From the NCBI GenBank assembly GCA_016763715.1, contig JAESTG010000125.1, forward strand, positions 1 through 6,987: a stretch of 6,987 nucleotides of DNA, given 5' to 3'. Both the position numbers and the translations under genes were made by a program. This DNA comes from Flavobacteriaceae bacterium. GTDB taxonomy: Bacteria > Bacteroidota > Bacteroidia > Flavobacteriales > Flavobacteriaceae. Of this stretch, positions 1,516 through 4,685 are shown in pieces (the first letter of the stretch is position 1; each line of letters begins with the position of its first letter). Under the pieces are notes generated by a model. It had not been told where the DNA came from and ran no database searches. It worked only from the letters and a program-made list of their open reading frames with translations.

Positions 1516-2604
1516 TTATGACTTATAGATAATTTCTTGATGATGAATAGATTCTTGATGAATCGCCTTAAAAACTTTTAAAATAAACTCCTCACTCAAC
1601 TGTTGCTCTTCTCCTTGAAGAATCATTTTACCAAGAATTTCATTCCAACGCTTGGTTTGCAATATCGCCACATTATTGCTGCGTTTTAAATGACCAATTT
1701 CATCACTAATCTTCATTCGCTTTCCGAGAATTTCAATTAATTGATGATCCACCACATCTATTTTTGTTCGGGCTGTGGAAAGCTTATTTTTAAATTCTAT
1801 AGCATCACCTTCTGCCACTCTAATTTTAAGATCTACCGTCATTTTATCCAGTGCCTCTGGTGTTATTTGCTGTTTCGCATCGCTCCAAGCATTATCTGGA
1901 TCAAAATGCGTCTCCACCATCAAACCATCGTAGTTTAGATCTAAAGCCGTTTGACAAAGGTCAAATATAATATCCCTTCGCCCCGCAATATGAGAAGGAT
2001 CTAAAATTAACGGTAAATCGGGGAAACGATTCTGAAGATCAATAGGAATTTGCCATTCCGGGTTATTCCGGTAACGTGTTTTCTCATAGGTAGAAAACCC
2101 ACGGTGTATGACGCCTAAATTCTTCACCCCAGCTTCATAAAAACGTTCTACCGCCCCTAACCATAGTGCCAAGTCTGGGTTGACAGGGTTTTTAATCAAC
2201 ACCGTTTTATTGGTGCCTTTCATTGCTTCAGCAATTTCTTGAACTATAAAAGGTGACACCGTAGTTCGAGCTCCTATCCAAAGAATATCAACATCGTGCT
2301 TCAACGCTAAATCCACATGATTTGGATTGGCCACTTCTGTAGTAGTGAGCATCCCTGTTTCTTCCTTTGCAGTCTGCAACCATTTTAAACCCAAGGCTCC
2401 AACACCTTCAAAATTACCTGGGCGCGTTCTTGGCTTCCAAATACCAGCACGCAACACCGTTGCATCAGTATCCTTTAACTGATGTGCGATTTTGACAACT
2501 TGCGCTTCGGTTTCTGCACTACATGGACCAGCAATCACTAATGGATGTGCTAAATTCATGTTGTTAAGCCAATTTCTTAATTCTTTCTTATTTTCCATTT
2601 TCAA
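1516..2604 (-). CDS. Bifunctional 3-deoxy-7-phosphoheptulonate synthase / chorismate mutase type II
   Basis: This 362-residue cytoplasmic enzyme joins the first shikimate-pathway step (PEP + erythrose 4-phosphate to DAHP) to chorismate mutase (chorismate to prephenate). Residues about 15-255 are a short class I-beta DAHP synthase: GPCSAET with Cys28, KPRTRPGNFEG (57-67), IKNP (137-140), HRGF (167-170), DPSHIAGRR with His205, and VETHFDPDNAWSD with Glu231 and Asp242. Cys28, His205, Glu231 and Asp242 match the metal ligands of the family. Residues about 272-360 are an AroQ-type mutase, with Arg279, Arg296, Lys307 and Arg319 in the expected places. The C-terminal mutase, the order known from Porphyromonas, is thought to give feedback control by prephenate. 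The start is either Met1 (2604) or Met3 (2598); homologues as I recall them begin at the second. Either way it overlaps the end of pheA, so the pair is translationally linked. Symbols for this fusion vary (aroA, aroF, aroG), so none is given. Confidence 0.95.
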   Translation of the reverse strand: MKMENKKELRNWLNNMNLAHPLVIAGPCSAETEAQVVKIAHQLKDTDATVLRAGIWKPRTRPGNFEGVGALGLKWLQTAKEETGMLTTTEVANPNHVDLALKHDVDILWIGARTTVSPFIVQEIAEAMKGTNKTVLIKNPVNPDLALWLGAVERFYEAGVKNLGVIHRGFSTYEKTRYRNNPEWQIPIDLQNRFPDLPLILDPSHIAGRRDIIFDLCQTALDLNYDGLMVETHFDPDNAWSDAKQQITPEALDKMTVDLKIRVAEGDAIEFKNKLSTARTKIDVVDHQLIEILGKRMKISDEIGHLKRSNNVAILQTKRWNEILGKMILQGEEQQLSEEFILKVFKAIHQESIHHQEIIYKS

Positions 2605-3457
2605 TCATATCTGTAAGTTCGCTTGGCACATTTCTATGATTCTGCGTATAGGCACCTACAATTTTTAATTCTTTTACTACCGACTCCAACGACTCCATTG
2701 CATCATAAAACTTCTGTGCATCTGCAAAGGTAACATCTACAAAAAAGGAATACTTCCACGGCGTCCCTAACATTGGAAGGGATTGTATTTTAGTTAGATT
2801 GATATCGTAACTAACCAACACTTGTAAAGTCTGGCTCAAAGTACCAACTTCGCTACCAAGTACAAATTTGATGGTTGCTTTGTCTGGGGACCTTTTACTT
2901 AAAACCGTACCGCGCTTTCCAATGAGGACAAAACGAGTTTGGTTTTCCTTAATGTCTTGAATATTACTATCCAATATTTTCAATCCATATCGCTCGGCGA
3001 CTTGCTTTCCAGCAATGGCAGCAACTCCCGCTAAGTTATTTTCTTTAATTCGTTTGGCTTCACTGGCCGTATCTTTTCCTTCAATTACCTTGAATTGAGG
3101 AGGGAACTTTCTCAAGTAGTCTTTACATTGTAATAATGCTACCGGATGCGAATGTACTTCGAAAATATCAATAATAGACTCACTCTCCAAAGACATTAAA
3201 TACATTTGAATGTTCAGAAAAACCTCATCAAAAATTTCAAAATCTCCTGCTTCTATAAGATTATAATTAGGTAAAATAGAACCTGCAATAGTGTTTTCAA
3301 TGGCAATAACACCAAAGTCTGCCTTATTGTTTTTCACGCTTTGAGTAACCGCGTCAAAGGAATCACACATTACTAAATCTACGTCCTTCTTCGGAAATAA
3401 TTTTTGCACGGCTTCATCATGAAAGGAGCCTTCAATACCTTGGATTGCGATTTTCAT
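2588..3457 (-). CDS. pheA: Prephenate dehydratase with C-terminal ACT domain
   Basis: This 289-residue cytoplasmic enzyme converts prephenate to phenylpyruvate, the committed step to phenylalanine. The two-lobed dehydratase domain (about 1-182) shows GIEGSFHDEA, IENTIAGSI (53-61), HSHPVALLQC (102-111), DTASEA (129-134) and the catalytic TRF (174-176). An ACT domain follows (about 194-275) with GTLSQTL (205-211) and LTKIQSLP (221-228), corresponding to the Phe-binding 'GALV' and 'ESRP' regions, so allosteric inhibition by Phe is likely. There is no fused chorismate mutase; that activity is in the next gene, whose start overlaps this stop. Upstream, on the same strand, lie an aromatic-rich leader peptide and a terminator ending 26 nt before this ATG, so expression should depend on read-through. 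A spurious ATG-AAG-AAA-CTA-TGA overlaps the true start. Confidence 0.95.
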   Translation of the reverse strand: MKIAIQGIEGSFHDEAVQKLFPKKDVDLVMCDSFDAVTQSVKNNKADFGVIAIENTIAGSILPNYNLIEAGDFEIFDEVFLNIQMYLMSLESESIIDIFEVHSHPVALLQCKDYLRKFPPQFKVIEGKDTASEAKRIKENNLAGVAAIAGKQVAERYGLKILDSNIQDIKENQTRFVLIGKRGTVLSKRSPDKATIKFVLGSEVGTLSQTLQVLVSYDINLTKIQSLPMLGTPWKYSFFVDVTFADAQKFYDAMESLESVVKELKIVGAYTQNHRNVPSELTDMIENGK

Positions 3458-3483: not shown

Positions 3484-3514
3484 AAAAAAACCCAGAAGTT
3501 AAGTTCTGGGTTTT
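3484..3514 (-). terminator. Attenuator terminator in the pheA leader
   Basis: Read on the - strand, AAAACCCAGAA (3514-3504) pairs perfectly with TTCTGGGTTTT (3497-3487) across a 6-nt loop (CTTAAC). The 11-bp stem merges into seven T (3490-3484), giving a standard intrinsic terminator. It ends 26 nt before the pheA ATG and 24 nt after the leader-peptide stop. No complete gene precedes it on this strand, because the neighbour gldA is divergent. It can therefore only act on transcripts heading into pheA. On the + strand the T-run is only four bases and no gene ends there. Confidence 0.9.
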
Positions 3515-3537
3515 CATTATATAATTATCAAAATTAA

Positions 3538-3609
3538 TTACATATTCACCCGACTCTTTCCAAAGAAATAGAAAAACCAAAAGTTAAAATATGTAAAAAA
3601 CTTGTTCAT
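3538..3609 (-). CDS. Aromatic-rich leader peptide of the pheA operon (pheL-like)
   Basis: This is a 23-residue ORF with an ATG at 3609-3607 and a TAA at 3540-3538. Its core reads FFTYFNFWFFYFF (residues 4-16), followed by Gly-Lys-Ser-Arg-Val-Asn-Met. Phe occurs at 4, 5, 8, 10, 12, 13, 15 and 16, Tyr at 7 and 14, and Trp at 11, so 11 of 23 residues are aromatic. Such density in a tiny ORF just ahead of a terminator and a Phe-biosynthesis operon is the hallmark of a transcription-attenuation leader, functionally like E. coli pheL but with a different sequence. A ribosome starved of charged tRNA-Phe (or Tyr/Trp) would stall here and influence the terminator 24 nt beyond the stop. A promoter-like site lies 18 nt upstream. 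The peptide itself probably has no other function. The ORF and context are seen directly; the regulation is inferred. Confidence 0.88.
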   Translation of the reverse strand: MNKFFTYFNFWFFYFFGKSRVNM

Positions 3610-3610
3610 T

Positions 3611-3628
3611 GCAGTACTTTATTACTGC
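3611..3628 (-). repeat. Inverted repeat at the predicted transcription start
   Basis: GCAGTA (3628-3623) and TACTGC (3616-3611) are perfect 6-bp arms with a 6-nt spacer (ATAAAG), ending 1 nt before the leader-peptide ATG. It overlaps the last base of the candidate -7 element. It could be an operator for a dimeric regulator or, if transcribed, a small hairpin at the leader start. A chance palindrome is possible. Confidence 0.35.
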
Positions 3629-3656
3629 TAATGTACACATTGTTTTATAACAACAA
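3628..3656 (-). promoter_or_regulatory. Candidate Bacteroidota-type promoter for the leader/pheA operon
   Basis: On the - strand TTG (3656-3654) is followed after 18 nt by TACATTAG (3635-3628). This matches the Bacteroidota pattern TTG-N17-23-TAnnTTTG with one mismatch in the -7 element. Transcription would start roughly at 3621-3623, leaving a leader of about 12-14 nt before the peptide ATG. The inverted pair ATTGTT (3657-3652) and AACAAT (3644-3639) lies between the two elements and could be a protein site, but this is unproven. Confidence 0.55.
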
Positions 3657-3782: not shown

Positions 3783-4685
3783 ATGTCAATAGAAGTATCT
3801 AATATTACTAAAGTCTACGGAAACCAAAAGGCGCTCCAAGATGTTTCCTTCACCATTAATAAAGGAGAAGTTGTTGGGTTTTTAGGCCCAAACGGTGCTG
3901 GAAAGTCAACCCTTATGAAAATCTTAACCACTTACATTCAAGCAAGTAGTGGGACAGCAAAAGTGAATGGATTTATTGTTTCTGAAGAAAACAAACAGGT
4001 GCAAAAGAGTATTGGATACTTGCCAGAACACAATCCGTTATATCTGGAAATGTATGTGAAAGAATATCTTTCATTCAATGCAAAAGTATACAATGTCCCT
4101 TCGGAAGAAGTTGACAAAGTGATTCAACAAACGGGACTCTCCTCAGAAGCACATAAAAAAATTGAGCAACTTTCGAAAGGATATCGTCAACGTGTGGGAC
4201 TGGCCAATGCGTTGCTTCATAATCCTGATGTGCTAATTCTTGATGAACCAACTACAGGCTTAGATCCCAATCAACTAATTGAAACACGAGAACTCATTAA
4301 AAGCGCTGGAAAGGAAAAAACAGTTTTGCTTTCTACGCATATCATGCAGGAGGTGGAAGCCATTTGTGATAGGGTGATTATTATAAACAAAGGGCAAATA
4401 GTATTAGACAAAACACTAAAATCTTTAAGTGAAGACAAAGAACACATTGTCGAAGTCGAGTTTGACTATCGAGTGGAAGAAGTGGCGTTACAAAAAATGG
4501 ACAAAGTAAAAAAGGTGGAAAACTCTCATGGATTTTTATATCAAATTCATTTCGCTACCCAAGAAGATATGCGTGCTAAAGTATTCGATTTTGCCCATGA
4601 CAATGGCCTGAAAATACTTCAGTTACATCAAAAAAATACGAGTTTAGAAAAATTATTTATTAGTCTTACTGCTCCTGAAAAATAA
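3783..4685 (+). CDS. gldA: Gliding motility-associated ABC transporter ATP-binding protein GldA
   Basis: This is a 300-residue ABC ATPase without membrane segments, acting at the cytoplasmic face of the inner membrane. Visible motifs are Walker A GPNGAGKST (35-43), signature LSKGYRQRVGLA (130-141), Walker B LILDEP (151-156), D-loop GLDPNQ (159-164) and switch His186 in STHIMQEVEAICDR. The usual Q-loop glutamine region reads GYLPEHNPLYLEMYVKEYL, a form I associate with GldA and related ABC-2 exporters. GldA is known from Flavobacterium to work with GldF and GldG and to be needed for gliding there, and its gene lies apart from gldFG, as here. Residues about 215-300 form a C-terminal domain common in this subfamily. 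A generic ABC-2 exporter role cannot be excluded in a non-gliding species. The gene is divergent from the pheA operon, and its end overlaps the opposing lipoprotein gene by 20 bp. Confidence 0.9.
   Translation: MSIEVSNITKVYGNQKALQDVSFTINKGEVVGFLGPNGAGKSTLMKILTTYIQASSGTAKVNGFIVSEENKQVQKSIGYLPEHNPLYLEMYVKEYLSFNAKVYNVPSEEVDKVIQQTGLSSEAHKKIEQLSKGYRQRVGLANALLHNPDVLILDEPTTGLDPNQLIETRELIKSAGKEKTVLLSTHIMQEVEAICDRVIIINKGQIVLDKTLKSLSEDKEHIVEVEFDYRVEEVALQKMDKVKKVENSHGFLYQIHFATQEDMRAKVFDFAHDNGLKILQLHQKNTSLEKLFISLTAPEK

Follow-up and report, generated by a model that had tools for sequence, protein, structure and literature searches.

A leader rich in aromatic codons, a terminator and a matching antiterminator strand upstream of pheA in Flavobacteriaceae: a probable ribosome-mediated attenuator

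The window, the whole 6,987-nucleotide stretch of a Flavobacteriaceae genome that was analyzed, carries on its minus strand a promoter-like box, a short leader ORF, a terminator, pheA and a gene for a bifunctional DAHP synthase/chorismate mutase, in this order (Table 1). The pheA product scored 210.6 bits with NF008865, slightly below the cut-off of 219, and its ACT domain match was also below cut-off; the second gene overlaps pheA and has an in-frame ATG at 2598. Upstream, the neighboring gene is gldA, divergent as the sequence-only reading of this DNA had claimed. At the other end, an SRPBCC-type protein (Polyketide_cyc2) and a SnoaL-like protein, encoded at 727-1305 and 159-527 on the plus strand, face the end of the DAHP synthase gene. 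Among 25 close loci, 24 have DAHP synthase/chorismate mutase after pheA (the sequence of L002 ends too early), and 11 of the 12 longer order- and family-level loci show the order pheA, aminotransferase, tyrA, DAHP synthase/chorismate mutase, the twelfth (L172) having pheA and then DAHP synthase. Given these gene orders downstream of pheA, the candidate attenuator described here precedes the entry step of the aromatic pathway and the Phe branch, and often the Tyr branch as well.

Table 1. Positions of the leader, its proposed regulatory strands and the neighboring genes in the window
Feature	Position	Strand	Remark
DAHP synthase/chorismate mutase (bifunctional), second gene under the proposed control	1516..2604	-	PF00793 and PF01817, both above cut-off
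pheA, prephenate dehydratase, first gene under the proposed control	2588..3457	-	PF00800 above cut-off
Strand 4, terminator 3' arm TTCTGGGTTTT plus T run	3484..3497	-	
Strand 3, terminator 5' arm, AAAACCCAGAA	3504..3514	-	Alternative partners: strand 2 or strand 4
Strand 2, CGGGT, codons 20-21, putative antiterminator strand inside the leader ORF	3548..3552	-	
Control codons, residues 4-16 (8 Phe, 2 Tyr, 1 Trp among 13)	3562..3600	-	
Leader peptide ORF, 23 codons, MNKFFTYFNFWFFYFFGKSRVNM	3538..3609	-	Aromatic-rich leader: 135/163 loci
TACATTAG, likely sigma-A -7 box of the Bacteroidetes TAnnTTTG type	3628..3635	-	
TTG, likely -33 promoter element	3654..3656	-	18 nt ahead of the -7 box
gldA, divergent from pheA	3783-4685	+	

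The translation of the 23-codon ORF (3609-3538) agrees with the earlier count of 8 Phe, 2 Tyr and 1 Trp, all of them within residues 4-16, and the promoter-like TTG-N18-TACATTAG (3656-3628) is present as described; according to a passage in PMC9723704, the sigma-A consensus TAnnTTTG lies at -12 to -5. In the window, transcription would start near 3623, about 14 nt ahead of the leader ATG. Between leader and first gene lies an intrinsic terminator, as in ribosome-mediated attenuators: AAAACCCAGAA-CTTAAC-TTCTGGGTTTT (3514-3487) forms an 11-bp stem with a 6-nt loop, and a twelfth pair, G-T, can also be counted. It had been read as an 11-bp hairpin followed by seven U at 24 nt from the leader; the stem and the T run (3490-3484) stand, the first four T being paired within the stem, and the gap from the stop codon to the 11-bp stem is 23 nt. 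The region 3640-3458 folded better than 200 of 200 dinucleotide shuffles, with a z of -4.88.

To assess how widely this arrangement occurs, pheA loci were taken from 25 close relatives, from 50 of the 62 order-level matches (108 genomes) and from 95 of the 140 family-level matches (159 genomes); the sets overlap and some places were taken twice, and the total is 163 loci, window included. The scan covered the 700 nt upstream of pheA and required a 10-40-residue ORF in which some 12-residue stretch holds 7 or more F/Y/W, followed by a terminator at most 110 nt past the stop codon. Leader and terminator were found upstream of pheA in 135 of the 163 loci, and the same scan gave 0/163 on the opposite strand, 0/163 in mononucleotide shuffles and 0/978 in dinucleotide shuffles, the last with an identical result on repetition. 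By set, 25/25 loci of close relatives, 93/95 at the family level and 24/50 at the order level passed. The comparison with relatives that the sequence-only reading had proposed thus came out in its favor: all 25 close relatives have an F/Y/W-rich ORF at the equivalent place, then a terminator, and over the wider set the remaining peptide diverges strongly with the aromatic cluster kept.

The 28 loci that failed the scan (L051, L054, L055, L057-L060, L062-L075, L030, L034, L047, L052, L056, L086 and L102) are of several kinds. Five of them, L030, L034, L052, L056 and L102, show an aromatic ORF and a terminator by eye, beyond the limits of the scan; reading the sequences of L047 and L086 revealed no such pair. 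Seven genomes of about 0.6 Mb (L051, L054, L055, L057-L060) keep pheA and fail the scan for leader and terminator; this is the size of insect endosymbionts such as Blattabacterium. Fourteen order-level genomes (L062-L075) have a low-similarity pheA (29-35% identity) and no leader before it. In the genomes with a low-similarity pheA (17), no attenuator was found upstream of the DAHP synthase gene in 18 loci, and two weak F-rich ORFs (L189 and L190) sit downstream of that gene.

As for more distant genomes, a class-wide sample gave a pheA match in 52 of 198; of its 42 newly examined loci, 16 passed the scan, 4 more passed a looser one (5 or 6 aromatics), and in L197, L199, L200, L206, L210, L220 and L228 an aromatic ORF can be seen by eye, along with a terminator whose loop is longer or imperfect. 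PheA from 12 of the 16 positives is at most 41% identical to that of the window, the lowest value among the 140 family matches being 42%; the element therefore probably extends past the family of the window.

The 135 positive loci correspond to 128 distinct leader-terminator stretches. A TANNTTNG box lies 12-55 nt 5' of the leader ATG in 117 of these (74/640 dinucleotide shuffles), accompanied by a TTG 17-21 nt above it in 88 (10/640 shuffles). The start codon is ATG in 128/128 leaders; 86 of them carry A at -3 and 72 carry it at -6, positions at which, as stated in a passage on F. johnsoniae, A favors initiation (PMC6847099). The peptide is under constraint at the codon level in the close clade: in 21 distinct close leaders, all with 23 codons, codons 2-15 give a pN/pS of 0.089 when single-base codon changes alone are counted (585 synonymous differences over 1195 sites, 334 nonsynonymous over 7625 sites), and about 0.2 if the 431 multi-base codon differences set aside are all counted as nonsynonymous. 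The leaders were picked by locus, 23 of 26 having the 23-codon form, and L011, L021 and L025 were left out; this value replaces one of 0.066 obtained from 20 leaders chosen by the motif itself, because such a choice lowers the estimate. In L025, whose leader lies about 143 nt 5' of pheA, an 8-nt alignment gap puts the ORF out of frame and leaves a shortened peptide, MNKFFTYFNFFFLRK, with strand 2 and the terminator retained; judging from the alignment, this attenuator is damaged or mis-assembled.

Among the 128 distinct leaders, Tyr occurs in 128 and Trp in 92, and Phe is found in every listed leader. Asn makes up 140 of the 290 non-aromatic residues inside the F/Y/W clusters and is present at least once in 110 of the 128 clusters, where it perhaps interrupts U runs. 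This share of Asn, together with the recurrence of NFWFFYF or a near variant in most close leaders, is what speaks for nascent-chain arrest, in which the peptide itself would stall the ribosome, as metabolite-sensing arrest peptides do, in place of slow decoding for want of charged tRNAs; however, the order of residues is not kept beyond the close clade, and F and Y interchange, as expected if codons for scarce amino acids matter, so that we regard arrest by the peptide as very unlikely.

In ribosome-mediated attenuators, a second strand competes for the 5' arm of the terminator, and such an antiterminator was absent from the sequence-only reading. By base complementarity, it is carried by the 3' end of the leader (strand 2): strands 2 and 3 can form 5 or more contiguous base pairs in 126 of the 128 distinct stretches, and in one locus, L091, no helix of 4 bp or more was obtained with the arm chosen by the scan. 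The window itself reaches 4 bp, since only GGGT (3551-3548) pairs contiguously with strand 3 (GGGT/ACCC), and this is the shortest helix scored; strand 2 is CCGGGT or longer in most close relatives, relative to which strands 3 and 4 of the window are altered and strand 2 is unchanged. With the shortest antiterminator helix of the set, the window copy may lean to termination, or its base changes may be a sequencing matter.

Strand 2 and the corresponding part of strand 4 are identical in 65 of 127 stretches, and 84 distinct strand 2/3/4 triples occur, for instance CCGGGT/ACCCGG/CCGGGT, CGGGACT/AGTCCCG/CGGGACT, CGAGAC/GTCTCG/CGAGAC, AGGATT/AATCCT/AGGATT and GAGGCTTT/AAAGCCTC/GAGGCTTT; in Aequorivita antarctica (L019) all three strands change together, CCAGG/CCTGG/CCAGG standing where its congeners have CCGGG/CCCGG/CCGGG. 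The tail of each leader scored above all 20 of its own shuffles in 100 of 128 cases. When tails were swapped among 76 distinct arms, each represented once, the true pairing had a mean score of 17.3, which 0 of 20,000 permutations reached (permuted mean 12.7, sd 0.31), with kinship among loci uncorrected; the own tail fell under the median of all tails in 3 of the 76 arms. Two further pairings were considered and dropped: folding gave no support to a conserved protector hairpin between strands 1 and 2, and the signal for an inner hairpin conserved between strands 2 and 3 was weak (z below -1.5 in 25/127).

Regarding its position, strand 2 has its first paired nucleotide 12-16 nt from the first base of the codon that ends the cluster, defined as the final aromatic codon in the best 12-residue stretch. 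This holds for 105/127 stretches (83%) compared with 17% in shuffles, and the commonest distance is 13 or 14 nt; in the window the cluster ends by this definition at codon 15, at a distance of 16, and the distance from Phe-16 is 13. Of the 128 stretches, 116 have the start of strand 2 within the ORF and the other 12 have it at or past the stop codon, where a ribosome at the stop would cover strand 2 by its front only; in 15, strand 2 ends at least 7 nt beyond the first base of the stop codon. Relative to the ORF, the starts of strand 2 fall in frames 0, 1 and 2 in 27, 41 and 59 cases; being found in all three frames, it is therefore kept as RNA and not as peptide, and the C-terminal leader residues would be by-products of the RNA strand. 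This distribution bears also on the idea that the ORF encodes a real small membrane protein forming a separate unit with its own terminator, pheA using another promoter, to which the hydrophobic core conserved in the close clade and the terminator immediately 3' of the ORF would lend themselves; a protein would have no need of a 3' end that fits the terminator arm in three frames, and outside the close clade sequence, length and register vary with F/Y/W density kept, which makes such a protein extremely improbable. The loci were all chosen by pheA, and linkage to this gene was tested by the core pattern TTTTGGTTTTTYTAYTTY only, which has one match per genome, at the pheA leader, in 6 of 7 whole genomes of close relatives and was not found in the seventh, which has a divergent leader.

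The consequences of this spacing were modeled by folding the RNA as far as the terminator loop, the ribosome footprint and front edge being assumed. The predicted 2:3 pairing probability is about 0.99 with a ribosome stalled in the cluster, and averages 0.04 with one at the stop codon, where it is below 0.3 in 122 of 128 stretches. For the window, the model has pairing drop from 0.92 at codon 16, the last Phe, to 0.03 at codon 17, and a stall at any Phe, Tyr or Trp codon leaves strand 2 free. The model is stable with the front edge placed 9-13 nt past the first base of the A-site codon and weaker at 14-15, pairing at the last cluster codon coming down to 0.56 at +15 nt. The pairing probability was discarded as a discriminator: shuffled tails average 0.67 and exceed 0.7 in 74/128, so the stalled value alone is weak evidence, and the argument rests on the helix score, the match of each tail to its own arm, and the position. 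With the footprint assumed and a stalled value that is not specific, the spacing is one that lets a stalled ribosome free strand 2 and a finishing ribosome cover it. In an untranslated transcript of the window, strand 2 is predicted to be hidden (2:3 pairing 0.06); without a ribosome, the 2:3 helix stays paired in 83 of the 128 distinct stretches and unpaired in 28, and the untranslated state, as modeled, is not conserved among relatives.

Taken together, the leaders and terminators of the relatives and the antiterminator matched to its own arm support the earlier proposal of a transcription attenuator, and we consider it very probable that this is a ribosome-mediated one, in which the supply of charged Phe-, Tyr- and Trp-tRNA sets the transcription of pheA and the DAHP synthase/chorismate mutase gene. 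From the leader, its cluster, the terminator, the complementary strand 2, the own-arm match and the spacing, all visible in the compared sequences, we infer promoter activity, leader translation, stalling and a change in termination that would be linked as follows. Transcription would begin shortly 5' of the leader ORF, and a ribosome would initiate on the leader. With aromatic tRNAs charged, it would traverse the cluster to the stop codon, its body hiding strand 2; strand 3 would then pair with strand 4, and RNA polymerase would terminate ahead of pheA. If one aromatic tRNA were scarce, the ribosome would stall within the cluster, strand 2, just beyond it, would capture strand 3, no terminator would form and the operon would be transcribed. 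On this model, we read the element as sensing Phe and Tyr, plus Trp in leaders that have its codon.

A ligand-binding riboswitch or a T-box-like RNA could also drive a terminator behind a structured leader, with the ORF being incidental. At gathering score, though, no Rfam family matched the window or the pheA loci of ten relatives; coding is conserved, and among the folds sought the pairing found is the strand 2/3/4 set, so that an RNA of this kind has a negligible probability. Weaker Rfam matches (MicC, ohsC and others) were rejected, being far under their cut-offs, and the three that were aligned cover the terminator hairpin. RF01859 (Phe_leader), like the pheA element a Phe leader with a terminator, reached 18.1 bits in the window with its covariance model, the gathering score being 55.

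The ribosome-mediated attenuators of amino acid operons are known from trp, phe, his and ilv of E. coli. The pheA element shares with them an ORF rich in codons for the product, an intrinsic terminator before the first gene and a mutually exclusive antiterminator; unlike them, its strand 2 starts within the last leader codons (116/128) in any frame, it has no conserved hairpin between strands 1 and 2, and a single leader mixes Phe and Tyr, often also Trp, codons. The E. coli phe leader has Phe codons and is not known to have Tyr or Trp codons. A further difference lies in the host phylum, members of which are described in a passage of PMC6847099 as being without Shine-Dalgarno sequences.

A parallel system exists in the same family, Bacteroid-trp (RF01692, cut-off 49 bits), which has Trp codons whereas the pheA element has Phe and Tyr; PMC2864571 lists it for Bacteroidetes. 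It had no match in the window or in the ten pheA loci, occurs above cut-off in 36 of 60 family genomes and in 2 of 99 class-sample genomes, and occupies a different locus, which in one genome (G088) is about 175 kb from pheA on the same contig. A WWW leader followed by a terminator was seen in 10 of 18 Bacteroid-trp loci scanned. In these ten leaders, from loci L236-L249, Asn-Thr directly precedes WWW in seven and the ORF ends in TCGTGA in eight; by eye, this hexamer is complementary to TCACGA across the loop and 3' arm of most Bacteroid-trp terminators, and is perhaps another antiterminator in an ORF tail.

The mixture of Phe, Tyr and Trp codons had been thought to suit an operon that holds the shared first step and the Phe branch, an explanation that needs correcting: mixed codons are common to operons with and without tyrA, and codon content is therefore no simple mirror of gene content. 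The Tyr share of aromatics is 0.36 in the 94 leaders before pheA-aminotransferase and 0.22 in the 31 before pheA-DAHP synthase, a group consisting mostly of the clade of the window. That Tyr codons track operon content was rejected, since in two apparently independent pheA-DAHP synthase loci, L050 and L100, with PheA 42% and 45% identical to that of the window, Tyr is not lower (4/11 and 3/8 of aromatics).

As to novelty, an earlier comparative study of attenuators by Vitreschak and others from 2004 may mention Bacteroidetes. In 2010, a passage of PMC2965389 held that Proteobacteria and Actinobacteria were the only groups in which leader-peptide systems had been demonstrated. The present element had been put forward as a flavobacterial case with its own peptide sequence; it is not the first case in the phylum: Bacteroid-trp is found in the same family with Trp-codon leader and terminator in the 10 loci given above, and a conserved structured element upstream of pheA, hence at the same gene in the same family, was named in a 2021 study of F. 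psychrophilum (PMC9723704). The portion of that article on pheA reports this 5' element in other Flavobacteriaceae genera, without an Rfam hit, and contains no leader sequence, antiterminator or wider range; another of its statements is that amino acid synthesis operons show strong clues of leader-peptide attenuation. In Bacteroides thetaiotaomicron, sORFs in long 5' UTRs are mentioned in PMC7366714, in a passage that concerns another gene, BT_4401, and asks for validation. The literature search found no detailed account of the pheA leader, the nearest being the cited part of PMC9723704. The pheA element is thus a known type of switch, with an antiterminator and a range described here and with no Rfam family match.

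In conclusion, a clean and widespread regulatory element for aromatic amino acid synthesis emerges for a major phylum; its leader peptide is shorter than gene calling usually detects. More tentatively, at somewhat under even confidence, it may represent a broad Bacteroidia family of attenuators whose single leader works as an OR gate of as many as three amino acids (Phe, Tyr and Trp), using two competing RNA pairings, the front edge of the ribosome as a ruler and no conserved protector hairpin, with the antiterminator mostly in the last codons of the leader and in any frame. If true, this would imply that ribosome and polymerase are tightly coupled no more than about 100 nt from the start site, in a phylum in which mRNAs generally have no Shine-Dalgarno sequence. 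A stalled ribosome can bring about attenuation only where ribosome and RNA polymerase move in step, and the element would therefore be a natural reporter of transcription-translation coupling in Bacteroidia, its differing frames combined with a nearly fixed spacing of about 13 nt amounting to a natural experiment on the front edge of the ribosome.
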